DNA of 5,844 nt from Pseudomonadota bacterium (lineage in GTDB: Bacteria; Pseudomonadota; Alphaproteobacteria; Rhizobiales; Xanthobacteraceae), in NCBI GenBank assembly GCA_021779635.1, contig JAJYAH010000481.1:1-5844 (forward strand). Direction: 5' to 3'. The first letter of the stretch is position 1. Each line of letters starts with the position of its first letter. A model generated the notes under the pieces. That model saw nothing but the letters and a program-made list of their open reading frames with translations, did no database searches and had not been told where the DNA came from. Of the stretch, positions 1 through 5,844 are shown piece after piece. Both the position numbers and the translations under genes were made by a program.

Positions 1-7
1 CAGCATT

Positions 8-132
8 ATACCAGCTCGCCAATTCATTGACTCTATCAGACAGGTGGCGGGCTGGTATAAGGCTTTGATTTCGCGCGCGGCCGCCCCGCCAACCCCGCGC
101 GCATACCAATCCGCATTTTTGCGGATTGGTAT
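8..132. repeat. 125-bp composite palindromic repeat element, left copy
   Basis: The element is built from three back-to-back inverted repeats: 8-58 (14-bp arms starting ATACCAGC and ending GCTGGTAT, one wobble mismatch), 73-102 (GCGCGCGG / CCGCGCGC) and 103-132 (12-bp perfect stem ATACCAATCCGC / GCGGATTGGTAT with a 6-nt loop). Both ends of the element read ATACC...GGTAT. A second copy lies in opposite orientation at 892-1016; a hand alignment gives about 8 mismatches over 125 positions, half of them in the loop of the last hairpin. No ORF inside is credible. It behaves like a REP/MITE-type intergenic repeat, but I cannot assign it to a named family. Confidence 0.85.
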
Positions 133-148
133 TATATTTTGGCGGTTT

Positions 149-225
149 GCGCCCTTAGCTCAGCTGGATAGAGCACGAGACTTCTAATCTTGAGGCCGGT
201 GGTTCGACTCCACCAGGGCGCGCCA
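149..225 (+). tRNA. trnR: tRNA-Arg (anticodon TCT)
   Basis: A complete cloverleaf can be read: 7-bp acceptor stem gcgccct/agggcgc, D stem gctc/gagc, anticodon stem cgaga/tcttg around the loop CTTCTAA (anticodon TCT, reading AGA/AGG arginine codons), a 5-nt variable loop, a T arm ggtgg/ccacc with loop TTCGACT, discriminator G and an encoded CCA end at 223-225. It is 77 nt long including CCA. The upstream palindromic repeat ends only 16 nt before it, so its promoter must overlap the repeat edge (TATTAT at 130-135 is a possible -10) or lie further upstream. tRNA-Arg genes are common integration targets, but I found no second copy of its 3' end in the window. Confidence 0.96.
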
Positions 226-334
226 AACTTTTCCGTCAATGCTCTTCGCAGACCCAGCGCGTGGCTTTTGCCGCGGACCGGAACCCGCAATCTCCGAGCG
301 ATGACAGCGACATGGCCGGGTTTCATCTGTGCGG

Positions 335-703
335 TTAAAAACCGCCACCACCCATCGCCCCAGGCGTTCCCGCGCCGGGCAAGCCAGTGCTCAATCCGGT
401 GCTCAATCCGCTACCCGTCCCGGCGGTATTGCCACCGATGAAGTTATCCAGCGGCCCGGACTGCCCGGAATTGCCCAACATGTTCGGTTGGCTCACGCCG
501 GCCGATGTGTTGTCGTGGAAATAACGGTCGGCGCCGGCGGCGCTGGCGAAGGGGTTGACATTGCCGCCGAACGCGAAATTGCCGGGCGATGGGATAATGC
601 CACCGGCATTGGGGGTTCCCAGGCTGAAATCCTGGGCAAGCAGCGTGGCGGGGGCCAACAGCGTCCGGGCCGCTAATGCAAAAGCAAGAATCCAGCGTTC
701 CAT
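335..703 (-). CDS. Small exported Gly/Asn/Ser-rich protein of unknown function
   Basis: I do not recognise a family. The 122-residue protein begins with MERWILAFALAARTLL, followed by APATLLAQDF: a typical signal peptide with one basic residue near the start, a hydrophobic core and a likely signal-peptidase cut after about residue 23-24, so the product should be periplasmic or secreted. The mature part (about 98 residues) is low in charge and rich in Gly, Asn, Ser, Thr and Pro, with no cysteine pattern, and ends in a Gly-rich tail containing the tandem repeat GLSTGLSTGL and a terminal MGGGGF. The start at 703 is preferred over an ATG ten codons upstream (733), because GGGAGG lies a few bases before it and the signal peptide then sits at the N-terminus. 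No clear terminator follows: the short hairpin at 331-345 overlaps the stop and lacks a T-run. Strongly biased G/C third positions support it being real. Confidence 0.6.
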   Translation of the reverse strand: MERWILAFALAARTLLAPATLLAQDFSLGTPNAGGIIPSPGNFAFGGNVNPFASAAGADRYFHDNTSAGVSQPNMLGNSGQSGPLDNFIGGNTAGTGSGLSTGLSTGLPGAGTPGAMGGGGF

Positions 704-856
704 GGCCTGCCTCCCGCTCCGCAAGCGCGGCACAACAGCAGCAGCAGGACGACCAGGACCCGCTTCAACCGATCCGGCCGACCTTAATCCCTATAATCCC
801 TTACTACACCAACCCGACGCGCATCGACAACAATATTCTGCGCGACATCACCGGCG

Positions 857-880
857 CGGCCACGCGGGAAATCAAAGTTG
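857..880. repeat. Degenerate partial copy of the palindromic repeat
   Basis: The stretch gcggccacgcgggaaatcaaag closely matches gcggccgcgcgcgaaatcaaag at 941-962 inside and beside the right-hand element, in the same orientation. It lies just outside that element and looks like the decayed end of a neighbouring older copy. The sequence upstream (about 800-856) contains weakly similar pieces that I cannot align with confidence. Confidence 0.4.
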
Positions 881-891
881 CTCGCCCTATC

Positions 892-1016
892 ATACCAATC
901 CGCGTTAACGCGGATTGGTATGCGCGCGGGGTTGGCGGGGCGGCCGCGCGCGAAATCAAAGACTTATACCAGCCCGCCACCTGGCTGATAGAGTCAATTA
1001 ATTGGCGGGCTGGTAT
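892..1016. repeat. 125-bp composite palindromic repeat element, right copy (inverted)
   Basis: This is the reverse complement of the copy at 8-132, with the same three hairpins in opposite order: 892-921 (ATACCAATCCGC / GCGGATTGGTAT around the palindromic loop GTTAAC), 922-951 (GCGCGCGG / CCGCGCGC) and 966-1016 (perfect 14-bp arms ATACCAGCCCGCCA / TGGCGGGCTGGTAT). The equal length, shared ends and changes concentrated in one loop suggest mobilised or structure-constrained elements. The two copies bracket the tRNA-Arg gene and the small exported-protein gene. Confidence 0.87.
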
Positions 1017-1028
1017 CAGAGGCTGGAA

Positions 1029-1061
1029 CGGTTTCATCCTGATACGGTCAGGCTGGAACCG
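1029..1061. repeat. Imperfect 14-bp hairpin
   Basis: CGGTTTCATCCTGA (1029-1042) and TCAGGCTGGAACCG (1048-1061) pair around the loop TACGG, with two mismatched positions that become G-U or T-G type pairs. It adjoins the right-hand palindromic element by 12 bp and is followed by CTCTAGG. There is no T-run on either side, so it does not look like a terminator; it is probably another interspersed repeat. Confidence 0.55.
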
Positions 1062-1066
1062 CTCTA

Positions 1067-1114
1067 GGAGACAGACTCTACCTCAAAACGGATACATTTC
1101 AGGGGAGCACATCA
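1067..1114 (-). mobile_element. Possible relict insertion-sequence end
   Basis: Read on the minus strand from 1114, the sequence starts TGATGTGCTCCCCTGAAATG. This resembles the TG-initiated, CCCC-containing terminal repeats of IS3-type elements in proteobacteria. It begins exactly where the ardC reading frame loses its family sequence, and its first three bases supply the stop codon. No transposase sequence and no opposite end are visible, so this is a suggestion from pattern and position only. Confidence 0.22.
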
Positions 1115-1204
1115 GCGGACACCGCGTTCCAGATCGGCGATGATGCGGCCGGTGACGCGGGAATAGACATCCTGCCGCTCGGGATGGCGGACGGTATTCG
1201 GCAT
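1112..1204 (-). pseudogene. ardC: Truncated ArdC-type antirestriction protein (N-terminal stump)
   Basis: The minus-strand frame from ATG at 1204 encodes 30 residues, including RQDVYSRVTGRIIADLERGVR, then TGA. DVYxRVTxxIIADLExGVRPW is the opening of the ssDNA-binding N-terminal domain of ArdC/DUF1738 proteins (about 300 residues when whole), which plasmids and integrative elements use to protect entering DNA from restriction. Here the frame stops right after GVR, where the family normally continues PW. The original ribosome site GAGGAG is intact just upstream, so the 5' end is preserved while the rest is gone. The neighbouring sequence beyond the break looks like mobile-element debris. The stump cannot function as ArdC. 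It suggests that a conjugative or integrative element once occupied this spot. The family call rests on a short but characteristic motif. Confidence 0.72.
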
Positions 1205-1422
1205 GATCTCCTCCTCGGGGTTGGGGTGCAGCGCTGCGCTGCACCCCTGCCCGTCGGCGAGACCGGGGGTAGCAAGGTTCAGGGCGGGCGGGGCCGAGGG
1301 GGATCACCCGGCCTGCACGGAGCCGAAGGCGGAGGAAGGTCGGGGATACGGCCCCGAACGAGCGCCGAAGGCGCGATCCCTGGACCGCGCGAGGGGCGGA
1401 GCCCCTGAGCACGCGTCGAGAG
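1205..1422. other. G+C-rich, hairpin-dense non-coding stretch
   Basis: I see no credible gene here; the open frames on both strands are low-complexity Arg/Gly/Pro translations. The stretch contains a series of short inverted repeats: 1223-1247 (11-bp stem), 1341-1356 (CGGGG/CCCCG), 1362-1374 (GCGCC-GAA-GGCGC) and 1392-1406 (AGGGGC-GGA-GCCCCT). It is the upstream leader of the broken ardC gene, so it may be its former 5' region. A structured RNA is possible but not shown. Confidence 0.5.
1223..1247. repeat. Perfect 11-bp hairpin upstream of the ardC stump
   Basis: GGGGTGCAGCG and CGCTGCACCCC pair perfectly around the loop CTG. It sits about 10 bases upstream of the ribosome-binding site of the ardC remnant. 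There is no T-run on the ardC (minus) strand, so it fits a leader hairpin or protein-binding palindrome better than a terminator. Confidence 0.6.
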
Positions 1423-1572
1423 ATGAACGGCGTGTTGGATGCCTGGCACCAGCAGCATCCGAAGCCGAATAGCCAGGCAAAACCAGGCACTTACGGAATA
1501 CGCTTGCCAGATTCATCCAATAGATTCATATGGTTGCGCCACGTAACCGCTAACGGCGCTGAATATGAATGA
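1423..1572 (+). CDS. Possible 49-residue leader ORF overlapping the methyltransferase start
   Basis: An ATG at 1423 opens a 49-codon frame (starting MNGVLDAWHQQHPKPNSQ, ending RHVTANGAEYE) that stops at TGA 1570-1572, eight bases inside the methyltransferase gene that starts at 1565. I recognise no family; the peptide is polar and has no membrane segment. The ribosome site is poor (GAGAG directly against the ATG). The argument for it is the overlap: the methyltransferase start has no clear Shine-Dalgarno of its own, so a ribosome finishing this frame could restart there. It may equally be a chance frame or the remnant of a larger gene, so I hold it loosely. Confidence 0.25.
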   Translation: MNGVLDAWHQQHPKPNSQAKPGTYGIRLPDSSNRFIWLRHVTANGAEYE

Positions 1573-2764
1573 AAATTTGGACGAACCTTCACTCCAAATC
1601 CAGGGGCTGGCGGAGGTGATCTGTGGAGCACGGGACACCGCGACCGTCTCCGGGCTGACGCACAATTTCTACCGCTACCCCGCTCGGTTTTCTCCGACTT
1701 TCGTTCGCGCTGCGATCAAAGCTTTCACCGAACCTGGCGATTGGGTACTCGATCCCTTCGTCGGCGGCGGAACAACTCTCGTTGAAGCAATTGCGCACGG
1801 GCGCCAAGCGATCGGCGTAGATATTAGCTCGCTGGCGACGTTCATCAGCGAGGCCAAAACGCTCATTCTTGATGAGCAAGAGATAGAGATCATTCGCCGT
1901 TGGATCGGCCGCCTCTCGGAGATTGTGAACATACACCGACCCACAGATCGCTTCGTCGAGTTCGCCGATGCTGGATACTATCGAAACATGGAGGGTGCAC
2001 CCTATTGGCGCTTGAGGAAAGCAATTGAACAAGTTCTCGCGTCCGTAACTCGCCTCAAGCACGAGCGCGCTCAAATTCTGGCTCGCTGTGTCTTGCTCAA
2101 GACGGCGCAATGGGCATTGGATGCCCGAAAATATTTGCCGGGCGTAGCTGAATTTAGAGCGGAGTTACGGCGGCAGGGTGAAACGATGCTATCCGCGTCC
2201 GAAGGGCTACGTGCGCAGGTTCAGGCGAATGATACGTCTAAAGCGATCTGCCTCAACCGATCTGCATCTGGACTAGAACAGGAAGGAATTTTTCGGACGA
2301 TCCCAGCCCCGCGTCTTGTCCTTACTTCACCTCCCTATCCCGGAATCCATGTCCTTTACCATCGTTGGCAGGTAGACGGCCGCAAAGAAACACCAACGCC
2401 ATTTTGGATCGCAAATCGTCTCGATGGCGCTGGTTCGTCGTATTACACGATGGGTGCCAGAACATGCCTCAACCTGAAGACTTACTTCGATAATTTGAGA
2501 GCCTCATTTACCTCAATCGCGCAGGTCTGCGGTCCGGACACAACTATTGTGCAAATGGTCGCTTTCTCGGAACCTGACTGGCAGCTCGCTACTTATTTGG
2601 AAGTGATGACCGATTGCGGCCTTAGTGAAGTCGTACCCTGGGATGATTGCGATCTCACAGAGGGCAGGCTTTGGCGTGACGTGCCAAATAGGAAATGGCA
2701 CGCCCGGCAAAAGCGGCATTCGCCGGGCGCGCGCGAAGTCGTACTCCTTCACCGCAAGAGATAA
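1565..2764 (+). CDS. Site-specific DNA methyltransferase (N4-cytosine-type, TSPPY motif)
   Basis: The 399-residue protein should transfer a methyl group from S-adenosylmethionine to an exocyclic amino group in DNA. In order: a motif-X-like segment THNFYRYPARFSP (32-44), SAM-binding motif I DPFVGGGTT (63-71), an acidic motif II in IGVDIS (83-88), a long mostly helical stretch (about 95-250) that may hold the target recognition part, then catalytic motif IV TSPPYPG (254-260) and a C-terminal REVVLLHRK-like strand. SPPY is typical of N4-cytosine enzymes, while DPPY is usual for N6-adenine. Motif I before motif IV with a long insert resembles the alpha-class order. An in-frame stop at 1544-1546 leaves ATG 1565 as the natural start, though no good Shine-Dalgarno precedes it; TTGCCA at 1504 is a weak -35 candidate. 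No cognate nuclease adjoins it on its own strand. Its 3' end faces the GHKL ATPase gene with a 7-bp gap. Confidence 0.87.
   Translation: MNENLDEPSLQIQGLAEVICGARDTATVSGLTHNFYRYPARFSPTFVRAAIKAFTEPGDWVLDPFVGGGTTLVEAIAHGRQAIGVDISSLATFISEAKTLILDEQEIEIIRRWIGRLSEIVNIHRPTDRFVEFADAGYYRNMEGAPYWRLRKAIEQVLASVTRLKHERAQILARCVLLKTAQWALDARKYLPGVAEFRAELRRQGETMLSASEGLRAQVQANDTSKAICLNRSASGLEQEGIFRTIPAPRLVLTSPPYPGIHVLYHRWQVDGRKETPTPFWIANRLDGAGSSYYTMGARTCLNLKTYFDNLRASFTSIAQVCGPDTTIVQMVAFSEPDWQLATYLEVMTDCGLSEVVPWDDCDLTEGRLWRDVPNRKWHARQKRHSPGAREVVLLHRKR
2701..2729. repeat. 8-bp inverted repeat at the methyltransferase 3' end
   Basis: CGCCCGGC (2701-2708) and GCCGGGCG (2722-2729) form a perfect stem with a 13-nt loop, inside the last 22 codons of the methyltransferase gene. 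There is no T-run, so it is not a standard terminator, but it is the only strong hairpin I saw near the junction of the two converging genes. It may be a chance product of G+C-rich codons. Confidence 0.35.
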
Positions 2765-2771
2765 TCGCCAT

Positions 2772-5291
2772 TCAGGCCGCTTCTCCCGCGCTTTCGGAGA
2801 GCGATTCGTCGTCTACGTCTTCGAGTTCGGCCACACTGTCGATCATCGGAAGCAGGAACGGCGCCAGCGCGCTCGTTACCTGAGCCACGCGATCAGCGAC
2901 ATCAACCTTGCCATCCGGCATGTCCTCAGAGGATCGAGCGTCTTTCTTACGAAGCTGCTCTTGATGGAGGACAGCAAGCGTTACTAGGGTCATCCCGACT
3001 GTGAACCTTAGCTTCATGCCGGAAGCGTCTTTGGGTCGTGCCTTTAGGTACGTTTGCAGATGCACATTGTCCATATTCAGGAAGTAGTCGTACAGATCTT
3101 CTGTCTCTTTGGCGTCCGGCTGTCGTTTGATGCGCATGCAGGTGAATTTGTCGAACTCAGGCTCCTTCGACTTCCAGTCCTTTTCATATACGGGGATGGT
3201 CTCGGGAATGTCTAAGAAGCTTTCGCGGTTCTGATCGGAACCCTTGCCATTGGTTCCTTTGCCATCTTCTCCTTCTTTGTTGGCGTTCGTGTTGCGACCG
3301 CCACCGCTACCACCGCCTATCTCGCGTTCGGGCTGCACGGTCAAGATGAAAGAGTTTAGAAACGGATCAACACGACTGGGATCTGTGACGACGGCCTCAA
3401 ATTCAAGATCATCGCCTTCCGATACGCCATCCGGCAATGTCAGCGAAAGATGGGCAAGTCCGTTGTGTAGTCGTGGCCACTGGTAGTTCGTGGCGGGGAT
3501 ACGTCCATTAATGGTCACACGAAACAACTCAAAGGAACCGGGTTGTTCATCGCGCTTGAAATAGTCATTGGCGGCATCAGTTTCGAACGTAATACGCGCA
3601 TGCGAACCCATATAAGCATCTCGAATGAGCCGGAACGACGTTTCGTGCCCTTTGAAATGGAATTTAGTCGGAAAACGCTTGCCGATAAATCCCGCGATAC
3701 CAGTTCCGGCGGCCTCGGGCTTATGAGGGTTCTTAATCCTCATTCCCTGACCAAGAAGTGCGGCGAGGGCTGGGTTCTTGTTCAATAGATTCTCGATGAC
3801 CTTAGCCATCGACTCGGTGGCCTTTGGCTGCTCGGCTAATTCTCTCTTGCGTCGTTCAGATGCGAGTTCCCGCAGCTTTTCATGGCGCCTGAGCTGATCT
3901 TCAAGCTCCGCTTCCAACTTTGCCTTCAATTCGCCGTCACGGAGCCGATCGCGGCTGTTCATAAACAGCTTCTCGTGGGCACGGCGGCTGATAGCGCTGC
4001 AATCAACGATCAAGAGCAAGGAGTGCCATAGATAATCCTGCTTGACGTTCTTGCGGCGGAAAAAATCCTTGGTCATTGTCGCGTGGCACTGGCCATTGTA
4101 AGTAAACAAGATGCCTTCATCACGACGATAAGTATCGGCGGCGTCTTTGCTTTTGAATGGGTAAATGCTGGCTTCAAATTTTTCGCCATCCACGTCAAAT
4201 GGCAGCTTATCGAACCACTCGACGTGACTGCGTTTAGAATCATCAAGGTCACGCTGCAACGTCTCGACAAGACCAACCATCGTGGTGTCAAAGCTGCGAT
4301 TCGGATCGCCCCGATAGGGTCTGCATTCGTGGAAGCGAATAGGGAGGGCAGGTTGCGGTAACAGCAGCCTCGCTCGGTACATCAGACCGTCGGGGAACAT
4401 CATGTTCGTCGCAAATTTCCGGGCGTCATACTCATAGAGTTTGAGCAGGGTTCCCCACAGGGTTTCGCGCGCATATGGCTGGTTCTTGTCGGGAAAGAGC
4501 GCCATCTTTTCGGATGAAAAATGTAGCAATGCACCTTCACCCGGCCGAGCATCAGAGCCAAGCGGAGCCAAATACGTAAACCGGCTGCTCTTACCCTCGG
4601 ATGTCGGGTCGTCCCGCCGAATTATGGTGAAGCTCCAGTCCCCATCATCGGGGTGTTCCACCTCTGCGGAGATAAAATCGGGACAGCGTTTGCTCACCAC
4701 GAGCTGAAGATTTCGTTCCATCCCGCAGAACTCTAATACCCCGGTTCCGCCCATATTGAATTTGCCCTGGGCGAACTTGATCTTGTCCTTGTTGCCCTTA
4801 TGGAGCGACAGGATGGTGTCCGGCATCTTCGCAGGTGTCTGGCCCTCGCCGTCATCGACAATTGTGAAGCAGGGCCGGCCGCTGCCCTCCCTTGGCTTCG
4901 CACCCGTGGCAGCAACGGTGATGCTACGCGACAGTGCCTCTTGATCGCTGAGGCGAGTCCCAAAGAATGTTGCACGGGCTTCTGCGATCGTAGTCGGCGT
5001 ATTTGGCGCTTGCGGACTGCTTCCAGTAACGGGAAGGCAGCCTCTACGCCGCGCCTCGGCGATCAGCTTTGCATCAATCGAGTTGATAAGTTTCTCGATA
5101 ATTGCTTGTTCGGCTCTGCTCTGCTGGTTCCCTACCGACGAATAATTGAACTCTTCGTCTCCGAGGTAGCGCCAGGCGTTCACATCATCCCAGTACCCAG
5201 CGGTACGCAACAGCGAAATCACTTGAGCCTCGGTATCGGCTCGGATCAGATCAAGGCATAACTGTTTGGTCTTATTGCTGTTGGAGTTCAT
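2772..5291 (-). CDS. GHKL (HSP90/MutL/MORC-like) ATPase, defence-associated type
   Basis: This 839-residue cytosolic protein carries a Bergerat-fold ATP site: N-box EKLINSIDA (66-74, with E66, N70 and D73), G1 box DDGEG (146-150) and a G2-like lid GKFNMGGTG (176-184). A second globular part around 385-450 (YNGQ, a VDCS strand, then SRDRLRDG) resembles the transducer domain that follows the ATPase in MutL, MORC and HSP90. Next come a charged coiled coil (about 450-503), a beta-rich region (about 540-655), a flexible Gly/Asn/Lys linker (659-688) and a helical C-terminal domain with an acidic tail. I see no nuclease motif. Such proteins clamp DNA or partners on ATP binding, and MutL/MORC-like members occur in restriction-modification and other defence clusters. 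The start at 5291 has a strong GGGAGG five bases upstream. It follows the DndB-like gene by 54 bp on the same strand, with a terminator between them. The exact subfamily and partner are unknown to me. Confidence 0.85.
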   Translation of the reverse strand: MNSNSNKTKQLCLDLIRADTEAQVISLLRTAGYWDDVNAWRYLGDEEFNYSSVGNQQSRAEQAIIEKLINSIDAKLIAEARRRGCLPVTGSSPQAPNTPTTIAEARATFFGTRLSDQEALSRSITVAATGAKPREGSGRPCFTIVDDGEGQTPAKMPDTILSLHKGNKDKIKFAQGKFNMGGTGVLEFCGMERNLQLVVSKRCPDFISAEVEHPDDGDWSFTIIRRDDPTSEGKSSRFTYLAPLGSDARPGEGALLHFSSEKMALFPDKNQPYARETLWGTLLKLYEYDARKFATNMMFPDGLMYRARLLLPQPALPIRFHECRPYRGDPNRSFDTTMVGLVETLQRDLDDSKRSHVEWFDKLPFDVDGEKFEASIYPFKSKDAADTYRRDEGILFTYNGQCHATMTKDFFRRKNVKQDYLWHSLLLIVDCSAISRRAHEKLFMNSRDRLRDGELKAKLEAELEDQLRRHEKLRELASERRKRELAEQPKATESMAKVIENLLNKNPALAALLGQGMRIKNPHKPEAAGTGIAGFIGKRFPTKFHFKGHETSFRLIRDAYMGSHARITFETDAANDYFKRDEQPGSFELFRVTINGRIPATNYQWPRLHNGLAHLSLTLPDGVSEGDDLEFEAVVTDPSRVDPFLNSFILTVQPEREIGGGSGGGRNTNANKEGEDGKGTNGKGSDQNRESFLDIPETIPVYEKDWKSKEPEFDKFTCMRIKRQPDAKETEDLYDYFLNMDNVHLQTYLKARPKDASGMKLRFTVGMTLVTLAVLHQEQLRKKDARSSEDMPDGKVDVADRVAQVTSALAPFLLPMIDSVAELEDVDDESLSESAGEAA

Positions 5292-5296
5292 GGCCC

Positions 5297-5302
5297 CCTC
5301 CC
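5297..5302 (-). promoter_or_regulatory. Strong ribosome-binding site of the GHKL ATPase gene
   Basis: GGGAGG ends five bases before the ATG at 5291 and fixes that start. It lies in a G-run (GGGAGGGGG, 5302-5294) that can pair, mostly through G-U pairs, with CCTTTTTCC at 5315-5307 just after the terminator stem. Access to this site could therefore depend on RNA folding, though the helix would be weak. Confidence 0.6.
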
Positions 5303-5308
5303 ATCAGG

Positions 5309-5340
5309 AAAAAGGGGGGCGGGAAGACTATCCCCGCCCC
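5309..5340 (-). terminator. Intrinsic terminator between the DndB-like and GHKL genes
   Basis: On the minus strand GGGGCGGG (5340-5333) pairs perfectly with CCCGCCCC (5323-5316) around a 9-nt loop and is followed by CC and five T (5313-5309). It begins just after the DndB-like stop codon. Only 17 bases separate the T-run from the GHKL start, and six of them are the ribosome site, so no promoter fits after it. Expression of the GHKL gene must come through this terminator, which would lower or condition its level relative to the DndB-like gene. Confidence 0.8.
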
Positions 5341-5345
5341 AATCA

Positions 5346-5844
5346 TCACGCTGCCTTGGCAACCGAACGCTGTTCGCCTTCGGTCAAATCCATACCCAAC
5401 TTACTCTTGATGTAAGCCTTGGTGGCAGCACGTGCCTGACGGTTGGAGACGACGGAGTTTGCAACGATGCAGACGTTTTCCCAGTCCTTGTTATTCTTCG
5501 ACCAGTTGATCGACTTGATGCCAGTCAGCCGCTGTTGCCAATCGGACTCCTTCATTAATTCGGCACCGATGCCGCCGAGTGCGCGAAGCACAGTGGAGTG
5601 CGCGGAGATTTTTTCGGCGCGCAGCTCAATGGCGGTTTTCTGGCCTTTGAGAACCTTTGTCCAGTCCGGCATATTGGACGCGACCGCCGCCCAATATTCC
5701 GCAATGACCTTCGCCATGTCCTCCGCATCTTCCTCGTCCCGGCCCTTGAGCAGTTCGCGGTTCGCATCGTAAAGCGCAGCGAGCGTGAAGAGCTTGGTCG
5801 ATTTCGCTTTGAGCGAAACATCCTCCTTCTCGGTAAGTTCTTTG
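5346..5844 (-). CDS. DndB-like (DGQHR-family) protein, C-terminal part only
   Basis: The frame is open to the right edge, so the N-terminus lies outside; 165 residues are visible, about the C-terminal half of a typical DndB (roughly 350-400 residues). Visible hallmarks of the DndB C-terminus are STKLFTLAALYDANRELL near the edge, EYWAAVASNMPDW, AHSTVLRALGGIGAELM, INWSKNNKDWE and a closing KSKLGMDLTEGEQ. In phosphorothioation systems DndB acts as a regulator of the dnd operon, and related DGQHR proteins occur in other DNA-modification clusters, so the role here is not settled. Unlike the usual dndB-dndC order, the next gene downstream is the GHKL ATPase, 54 bp away on the same strand. The internal ATG at 5717 is not the true start, because conserved sequence continues upstream of it. 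The catalytic or DGQHR N-terminal part cannot be checked here. The family call is good; the exact subgroup is uncertain. Confidence 0.78.
   Translation of the reverse strand, partial: KELTEKEDVSLKAKSTKLFTLAALYDANRELLKGRDEEDAEDMAKVIAEYWAAVASNMPDWTKVLKGQKTAIELRAEKISAHSTVLRALGGIGAELMKESDWQQRLTGIKSINWSKNNKDWENVCIVANSVVSNRQARAATKAYIKSKLGMDLTEGEQRSVAKAA

Follow-up and report, generated by a model that had tools for sequence, protein, structure and literature searches.

The window analysed here, a stretch of 5,844 nucleotides of alphaproteobacterial DNA (contig JAJYAH010000481.1, positions 1 to 5,844; family Xanthobacteraceae), contains three genes connected with DNA modification: a DNA amino-methyltransferase (MTase), a GHKL ATPase that faces it tail to tail, and the C-terminal fragment of a DndB-family protein that ends 54 bp upstream of the GHKL gene on the same strand. 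An original prediction made from the sequence had described exactly these genes, including the 7-bp gap across which the MTase converges on its neighbour, and the analysis of open reading frames (ORFs) confirms them (Table 1). The prediction went on to treat DndB and GHKL as a pair, with the methylase standing opposite as a separate gene; comparison with other genomes redraws that grouping.

Table 1. Positions of the features in the window and, where residues are given, within the GHKL protein
Feature	Position	Strand	Remark
tRNA-Arg (TCT)	149-225		some 1.3 kb to the left of the MTase gene
DNA amino-methyltransferase (MTase) gene, 399 aa	1565..2764	+	partner of the GHKL gene
MTase motif I-like DPFVGGGT	1751-1774	+	
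MTase motif IV-like TSPPY	2324-2338	+	
7-bp gap	2765..2771		separates the convergent MTase and GHKL stop codons
GHKL ATPase gene, 839 aa	2772..5291	-	
GHKL ATP-binding motifs, whole span	4740..5096	-	conserved alignment columns
Q175..G184	4740-4769	-	
D146-x-G-x-G150	4842-4856	-	
N-box E66..D73	5073-5096	-	
GHKL ATPase and transducer	residues 39-486	-	span of fold matches
GHKL Ig-like beta domain	residues about 540-655	-	
GHKL linker	residues 658-693	-	low model confidence
GHKL C-terminal part	residues about 696-839	-	mainly helical
GC-rich hairpin and T run	5316-5340	-	between the dndB stop and the GHKL start
DndB-family gene, C-terminal part	5346..5844 (window end)	-	N-terminal half with DGQHR motif lies beyond the window

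A conserved methyltransferase and GHKL pair

The conserved unit is the tail-to-tail pair of MTase and GHKL genes, to which DndB is an optional addition. Among the genome contigs searched with the GHKL protein, all six near-full-length loci (at least 39 % identity), which lie in five genomes (G001, G301 with two, G067, G645 and G762), have an MTase gene tail to tail with the GHKL gene, whereas DndB is present at one of the six and missing from the other five, so that the notion of a DndB and GHKL pair facing a separate methylase is not supported. In the class to which G001 belongs, 10 of 385 genomes give a GHKL match (E <= 1e-20), as do 3 of 398 in its phylum and 2 of 96 in its family (E <= 1e-60), the three genome sets overlapping. 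In the reverse direction, the MTase (E <= 1e-70) is found at four loci in three of the 385 class genomes, G001 included, and a GHKL gene accompanies it at all four. Across all tail-to-tail loci measured, those from IMG/VR among them, the two genes are at most 18 bp apart or overlap by up to 95 bp, L053, L054 and L055 being among the overlapping cases. Several GHKL hits are misfits, namely those in G054, in which the match stops near a contig end and an MTase fragment lies near the start of another contig, in G187, which has a 298-aa GHKL fragment and no MTase at 1e-15, and in G131, G365, G347, G350 and G055, where the matches are partial or distant and no MTase is found at 1e-20. A search for DndB (PF14072) gives no match in G301, G067, G054, G187, G645, G762, G365, G347, G350 or G055, and in G131 a distant DndB match lies about 35 kb from the GHKL match.

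The same pairing is seen in IMG/VR, in which 45 MTase-related loci were found and annotation covered the eight strongest (L054-L061, at least 38 % identity) and nine (L062-L070) of the other 37, several of the latter being short matching stretches only, some of them at higher identity. Five of the eight have a convergent GHKL gene or a piece of one, as a gene in L054, L055 and L058, as a weak match over two ORFs in L056 and as a fragment in L061, and a further one (L059) has its GHKL gene upstream, on the same strand as the MTase. DndB is present in none of the eight, and GHKL in none of the nine. A phage origin was considered and set aside, as 50,697 phage records contain no match to the GHKL protein and a pattern scan of IMG/VR yielded no confirmed GHKL or DndB relative, an absence that means little for GHKL because the MTase search in that database found adjoining GHKL genes to which the scan had been insensitive.

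Co-occurrence was also read from lists of protein clusters, the best 120 each for GHKL, DndB and MTase, in which an identical longest-contig size served as the sign of a common contig, the contigs themselves being unread; sizes too short to hold both full-length proteins were left out (2768 for GHKL with DndB; 1548, 1921 and 2008 for DndB with MTase). Within these lists, 24 of the 120 GHKL clusters match an MTase cluster in size, against 0-3 in ten shifted controls, and the matches comprise 21 of 54 GHKL clusters with at least 60 % identity versus 3 of 66 below that level. Of 22 GHKL clusters compared that have at least 70 % identity, 14 match the MTase list and 5 the DndB list. When the listed GHKL contig sizes are moved by any of ten small offsets, the matches fall to 0-2 for DndB, as against the 0-3 for MTase given above. 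Three GHKL proteins closely related to that of the window and encoded on long contigs (P0001, 90 %; P0004, 82 %; P0011, 76 %) match a listed MTase in contig size and none of the 120 listed DndBs, which suggests that DndB comes and goes among close relatives, though a more divergent DndB there would be missed.

The complete triad also recurs. Locus L001, the one locus that a scan of genome contigs with the GHKL protein first gave, belongs to an alphaproteobacterial metagenome-assembled genome (MAG), G001, and consists of a full-length DndB gene (352 aa), 64 bp, the GHKL gene, 17 bp and the convergent MTase gene, with a divergent hipA upstream of dndB, an HNH_2 gene after the MTase and a relaxase gene near. 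Furthermore, four longest-contig sizes (5528, 7227, 9539 and 14132) are common to the GHKL, DndB and MTase lists, while two more recur in two lists each, 42116 for GHKL with DndB and 6449 for DndB with MTase. That the three genes keep company elsewhere, as originally supposed, is thus borne out by L001 and, indirectly, by the four sizes found in all three lists, and a chance assembly is rejected on the strength of L001, the reciprocal pairing and the contig-size matches. Between the window and L001, amino-acid identity is 85 % for the DndB fragment, 78-79 % for GHKL and 65 % for the MTase, and codon identity is 37-47 % at position 3 and 81-95 % at position 2, a pattern that selection acting on the proteins would produce. 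The MTase is therefore the fastest-diverging of the three, which would be expected if its sequence specificity shifts, other causes being possible.

Protein features and the place of DndB

The catalytic motifs of the MTase, DPFVGGGT and TSPPY, which we take to be motifs I and IV, respectively, are conserved. The TSPPY form presumably indicates methylation of cytosine at N4, and the closest solved sequences are N4-cytosine enzymes, matched weakly (E 5e-7) over the motif I stretch.

By sequence, the GHKL protein has no match to any Pfam, NCBIfam or PADLOC model at E <= 0.1 and no solved relative at E <= 1. Fold matching of its predicted model, on the other hand, gives a GyrB/MORC/Hsp90-like architecture, in which a Bergerat ATPase with transducer fold is present and is followed by an Ig-like domain. 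Residues E66, N70, D73, D146, G148, G150, G176 and G181 are invariant across alignments of 58 and 61 GHKL sequences, and fall in what we take to be the N-box, the DxGxG motif and the glycine motif. With ATP, GHKL ATPases of this kind form dimers and are able to encircle DNA, as is known from work on MORC proteins and topoisomerases. In the C-terminal model, matches to Ig-like folds are confined to the first 120 residues; within the helical part, for which the fold is unassigned, D735, N739 and N742 are invariant across the 61 sequences. Pfam detects neither a restriction endonuclease (RE) domain nor a TIR domain in the protein, neither an ExxxH nor an HxH reaches 90 % conservation among the 61 sequences, and of three loose PD-(D/E)xK-like strings not one consists of polar residues conserved at 95 %.

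The window's DndB fragment matches PF14072 (E 3.8e-37), as does the full-length L001 protein (E 1.3e-97; PADLOC DndB, 7.3e-105); the half-length fragment scores 142 bits against the curated cut-off of 328 of the NCBIfam model TIGR03233. The DGQHR motif is present in the L001 protein and is conserved at at least 90 % in 40 aligned rows, which include the window fragment even though it stops short of the motif. Among 31 aligned sequences, the subfamily to which the fragment belongs has a median identity of 72 %, whilst its identity to seven DndBs from dnd operons does not exceed about 40 %. Within passages of PMC4507180, DndB of Salmonella is described as a transcription regulator. Its operator, TACGN10CGTA, was sought with spacers of N8-12, and none is present in the window or L001. 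We tentatively favour a role for DndB here as a regulator or sensor. As a separate observation, a 15-kb Neorhizobium plasmid (L008, NZ_CP025514.1, 5866-13355) has a lone DndB that shares 61 % identity with the L001 protein and is unaccompanied by annotated dndCDE genes; its neighbours are a TIR gene, two N-6 methylase genes and a gene for a CopG regulator. The subfamily hence has other partners too.

Membership of the DndB family raises the prospect that DndB and GHKL form a module that senses phosphorothioation (PT), with the dndCDE or ssp genes outside the window. This explanation, which we consider quite improbable, also draws on the presence of SspBCD genes beside four of ten distant GHKL relatives, on Ensifer, Devosia and Hymenobacter plasmids and in genome G365. 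However, the 22.5 kb of L001 give no hit for dndC, dndD, dndE or ssp genes (DndE being sought there only, with a one-sequence profile), and the gene upstream of dndB is the divergent hipA. Within G001, a MAG that may be incomplete, the best DndC match reaches 21.8 bits against a cut-off of 290.4, and DndD has no match at E <= 0.001. The distance of the DndB subfamily from the dnd-operon proteins argues in the same direction, as does a control search of the 398 phylum genomes, in which six other DndBs were found (E <= 1e-50), all six of them 35-39 % identical and adjoining DndC. The possibility that the window edge cuts a standard dnd operon was likewise pursued, and no such operon is seen in L001 or its genome, a result that does not cover the window itself. 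The suggestion that the locus is a distinct module stands, L001 being the sole relative whose genome was checkable. Candidate ssp-like neighbours picked out by size at L026, L028 and L030 were rejected, the seven scanned being metabolic or transport genes.

Proposed action and its alternatives

The interpretation that we prefer, and judge evenly balanced between right and wrong, is that the locus is a defence system resembling restriction-modification (R-M), in which the methylase marks self, GHKL acts as a clamp on unmarked DNA, and DndB has been added in a sub-lineage. The amino-methyltransferase would mark host DNA at a specific sequence, and the MORC/GyrB-like ATPase would close as a dimeric clamp on DNA that lacks the mark. 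Clamped DNA might then be blocked directly, by entrapment or compaction, or through a recruited nuclease. The DndB-family NTPase, placed ahead of GHKL in the window's sub-lineage, would probably serve as a regulator or sensor in the absence of phosphorothioation enzymes. The ideas of the original prediction that DndB senses a modification and that GHKL clamps DNA are hypotheses still. A narrower form of this proposal dispenses with a nuclease altogether, so that the MORC-like GHKL itself would entrap or compact unmethylated DNA with the DndB NTPase as its controller in one lineage; we regard that form as unlikely.

A number of observations count against defence by the pair. To our knowledge, no activity is known for any close member of it. 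The GHKL protein has no nuclease that Pfam recognises, its helical C-terminal part not having been searched on its own. Of the two G301 copies, one (L023) has an in-frame stop in GHKL within the conserved FAQGKFNMGG (10964-10977) beside an intact MTase, and the other (L024), an unbroken pair, is set among sigma-70, DnaG and oxidoreductase genes, a setting that is neither mobile nor defensive. At L051, an HTH gene alone was recognised among the three neighbours scanned. Among the strongest IMG/VR loci, GHKL is lacking beside the MTase relative of L060, and the L057 contig runs out one partial ORF beyond the MTase, before GHKL could show. Finally, the ten distant GHKL loci are mixed, four being near SspBCD, two with other methylases, and four with neither in the genes scanned (L006, L007, L030 and L031).

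Other loci have mobile or defensive surroundings, which speak for the preferred reading. In addition to the relaxase, HipA and HNH genes of L001, there are AbiH, resolvase and RepB genes at L025, a replication initiator at L023, SIR2/STALD and recombinase genes at L055, a resolvase at L056 and a prophage tape-measure gene at L054. In L055 (4218-7215), the SIR2-STALD gene is just upstream of the MTase, and the recombinase on this IMG/VR contig is of the serine type. The mobile-element genes close to several loci also suit a rival in which the pair serves epigenetic control or the maintenance of mobile elements, the MTase regulating and GHKL organising or partitioning the DNA of the element, with no anti-phage role. 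Published abstracts tie eukaryotic MORC proteins to DNA compaction and silencing, and the lack of a Pfam-recognised nuclease in GHKL would be in keeping with such a function. Nevertheless, defence genes occur near some loci and, within the text of PMC2292703 that was available, combinations of methylase and GHKL genes are placed chiefly in R-M contexts; we therefore view maintenance as rather unlikely.

The HNH_2 gene adjoining the MTase in L001 bears on a further rival, an R-M system of type II-like design whose nuclease would be either an unrecognised domain in the C-terminal part of GHKL or the product of a neighbour such as this HNH gene. An HNH relative adjoins the distant GHKL gene of L031, paraMORC1 genes are reported with HNH endonucleases in the portion of PMC2292703 at hand, and the C-terminal part of GHKL has the invariant D735, N739 and N742 with no assigned fold. 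Yet relatives of the L001 HNH gene are beside no other annotated close pair, and neither an HxH nor a PD-(D/E)xK-like string meets the conservation levels given above. This is the most doubtful of the alternatives. Compared with canonical type II R-M, the locus likewise has a methyltransferase with catalytic motifs, but no endonuclease is recognised in the pair, and an HNH gene stands beside it in L001 only.

The distant GHKL relatives are roughly 23-35 % identical, with one local stretch at 41 %. One of them is with a C5 methylase in an archaeal locus. In L032 (7815-17753, G055), a distant GHKL gene, a C5 methylase, a VWA/CoxE gene, a ResIII-type protein and an N4/N6 methylase are on one strand. 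The GHKL family may hence supply a component tied to DNA modification that combines with more than one modification chemistry. Such a distribution is consistent with the reading of DNA marks and at the same time keeps the PT explanation alive. Two of the Ssp loci (L002, 5345-12433; L003, 9980-17023) have two GHKL-type genes, the distant relative and one annotated as a "sensor histidine kinase"; in L002, the latter has HATPase_c_3 and HATPase_c domains and resembles the HEF_HK proteins described in parts of PMC8011034.

Relation to known systems and smaller features of the locus

The association of methylases with GHKL proteins has been known since 2008, including a minority without helicases, while the addition of DndB is unusual. 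The sections consulted of Iyer et al. 2008 (PMC2292703) report GHKL ATPases in R-M operons, with helicases absent from a minority of neighbourhoods that have methylase or RE genes. As in the MORC/paraMORC operons of that account, an N-terminal GHKL ATPase with an S5-like transducer adjoins a DNA methylase gene here. The differences, for which the proteins of that paper are compared by description only, are several: the present pair has a constant two-gene, tail-to-tail layout, its GHKL protein has an Ig-like domain and a helical C-terminus, and the superfamily II (SFII) helicase or Vsr that is common, if not universal, in those operons is found neither among ten L001 proteins (Pfam) nor among the window ORFs. 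The conserved ExxxH of paraMORC2 is not seen in GHKL here, and neither are the TIR domain of paraMORC4 and the conserved HxH of paraMORC5, the last two being features of several members but not all; for the C-terminal RE-fold nuclease of paraMORC3, Pfam gives no match. The mark of paraMORC1 is a distinct C-terminal extension that follows its S5 domain. Bacterial MORCs were still called poorly understood in 2021, in the excerpts of PMC8011034 that were seen.

A MutL/GHKL ATPase is a defence component in a known system. The Shedu variant VcSduA, which has a GHKL N-terminus, likewise has a GHKL ATPase, its middle domain is predicted to be clamp-like and it serves in anti-phage defence, but it has a PD-(D/E)xK nuclease domain and acted alone, as far as the part of PMC12137116 consulted relates. 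With DndBCDE, the locus has in common the PF14072 family and the DGQHR motif of the full-length L001 DndB; it differs in its distinct DndB subfamily, in having MTase and GHKL as partners, and in the below-cut-off DndC and unmatched DndD of the L001 genome. The SspABCD systems are linked to it through the distant GHKL relatives, but one-sequence profiles give no hit for SspB, SspC or SspD at any of the six close loci of GHKL and MTase (L001, L023-L025, L051 and L053). The text of PMC10853773, as partly available, names DndB but not MutL, Hsp90, histidine kinase, HATPase or MORC, and neither pair nor triad is described in the literature listings surveyed, which included few subscription papers or bioRxiv preprints. 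As a recurrent methylase and GHKL pair with no recognised nuclease or helicase, the locus offers a near-minimal system for asking if an ATPase alone excludes unmarked DNA, and the presence of DndB, a protein of DNA sulfur modification, in a genome where the genes for that chemistry were not found makes the role of DndB testable.

To the left of the MTase, there is little clear coding sequence as far as the tRNA-Arg gene, a possible edge of a genomic island with one end only inside the window; its 3' end was considered as an attachment site and set aside, the last 12-25 bases having no second exact copy in the window. Terminator-like sites are not in excess across the window (seven found versus 5.8 expected from shuffles). 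The 54-base gap between dndB and GHKL folds at -30.8 kcal/mol (z -2.45), a second hairpin included, and L001 has a hairpin at the matching site (9947-9968; z -4.16) with the common GGGGCGGG..CCCGCCCC core and no T run. Lying as it does between the two genes, the hairpin may act as a terminator or attenuator, a suggestion based on two sequences; the GGGGCGGG..CCCGCCCC pattern is present in 4 of 98 loci examined, all four being copies of the L001 locus. TACG and CGTA, the two half-sites of the operator bound by DndB in Salmonella, stand on either side of the L001 hairpin at a distance of 20 bases, wider than in the operator itself.

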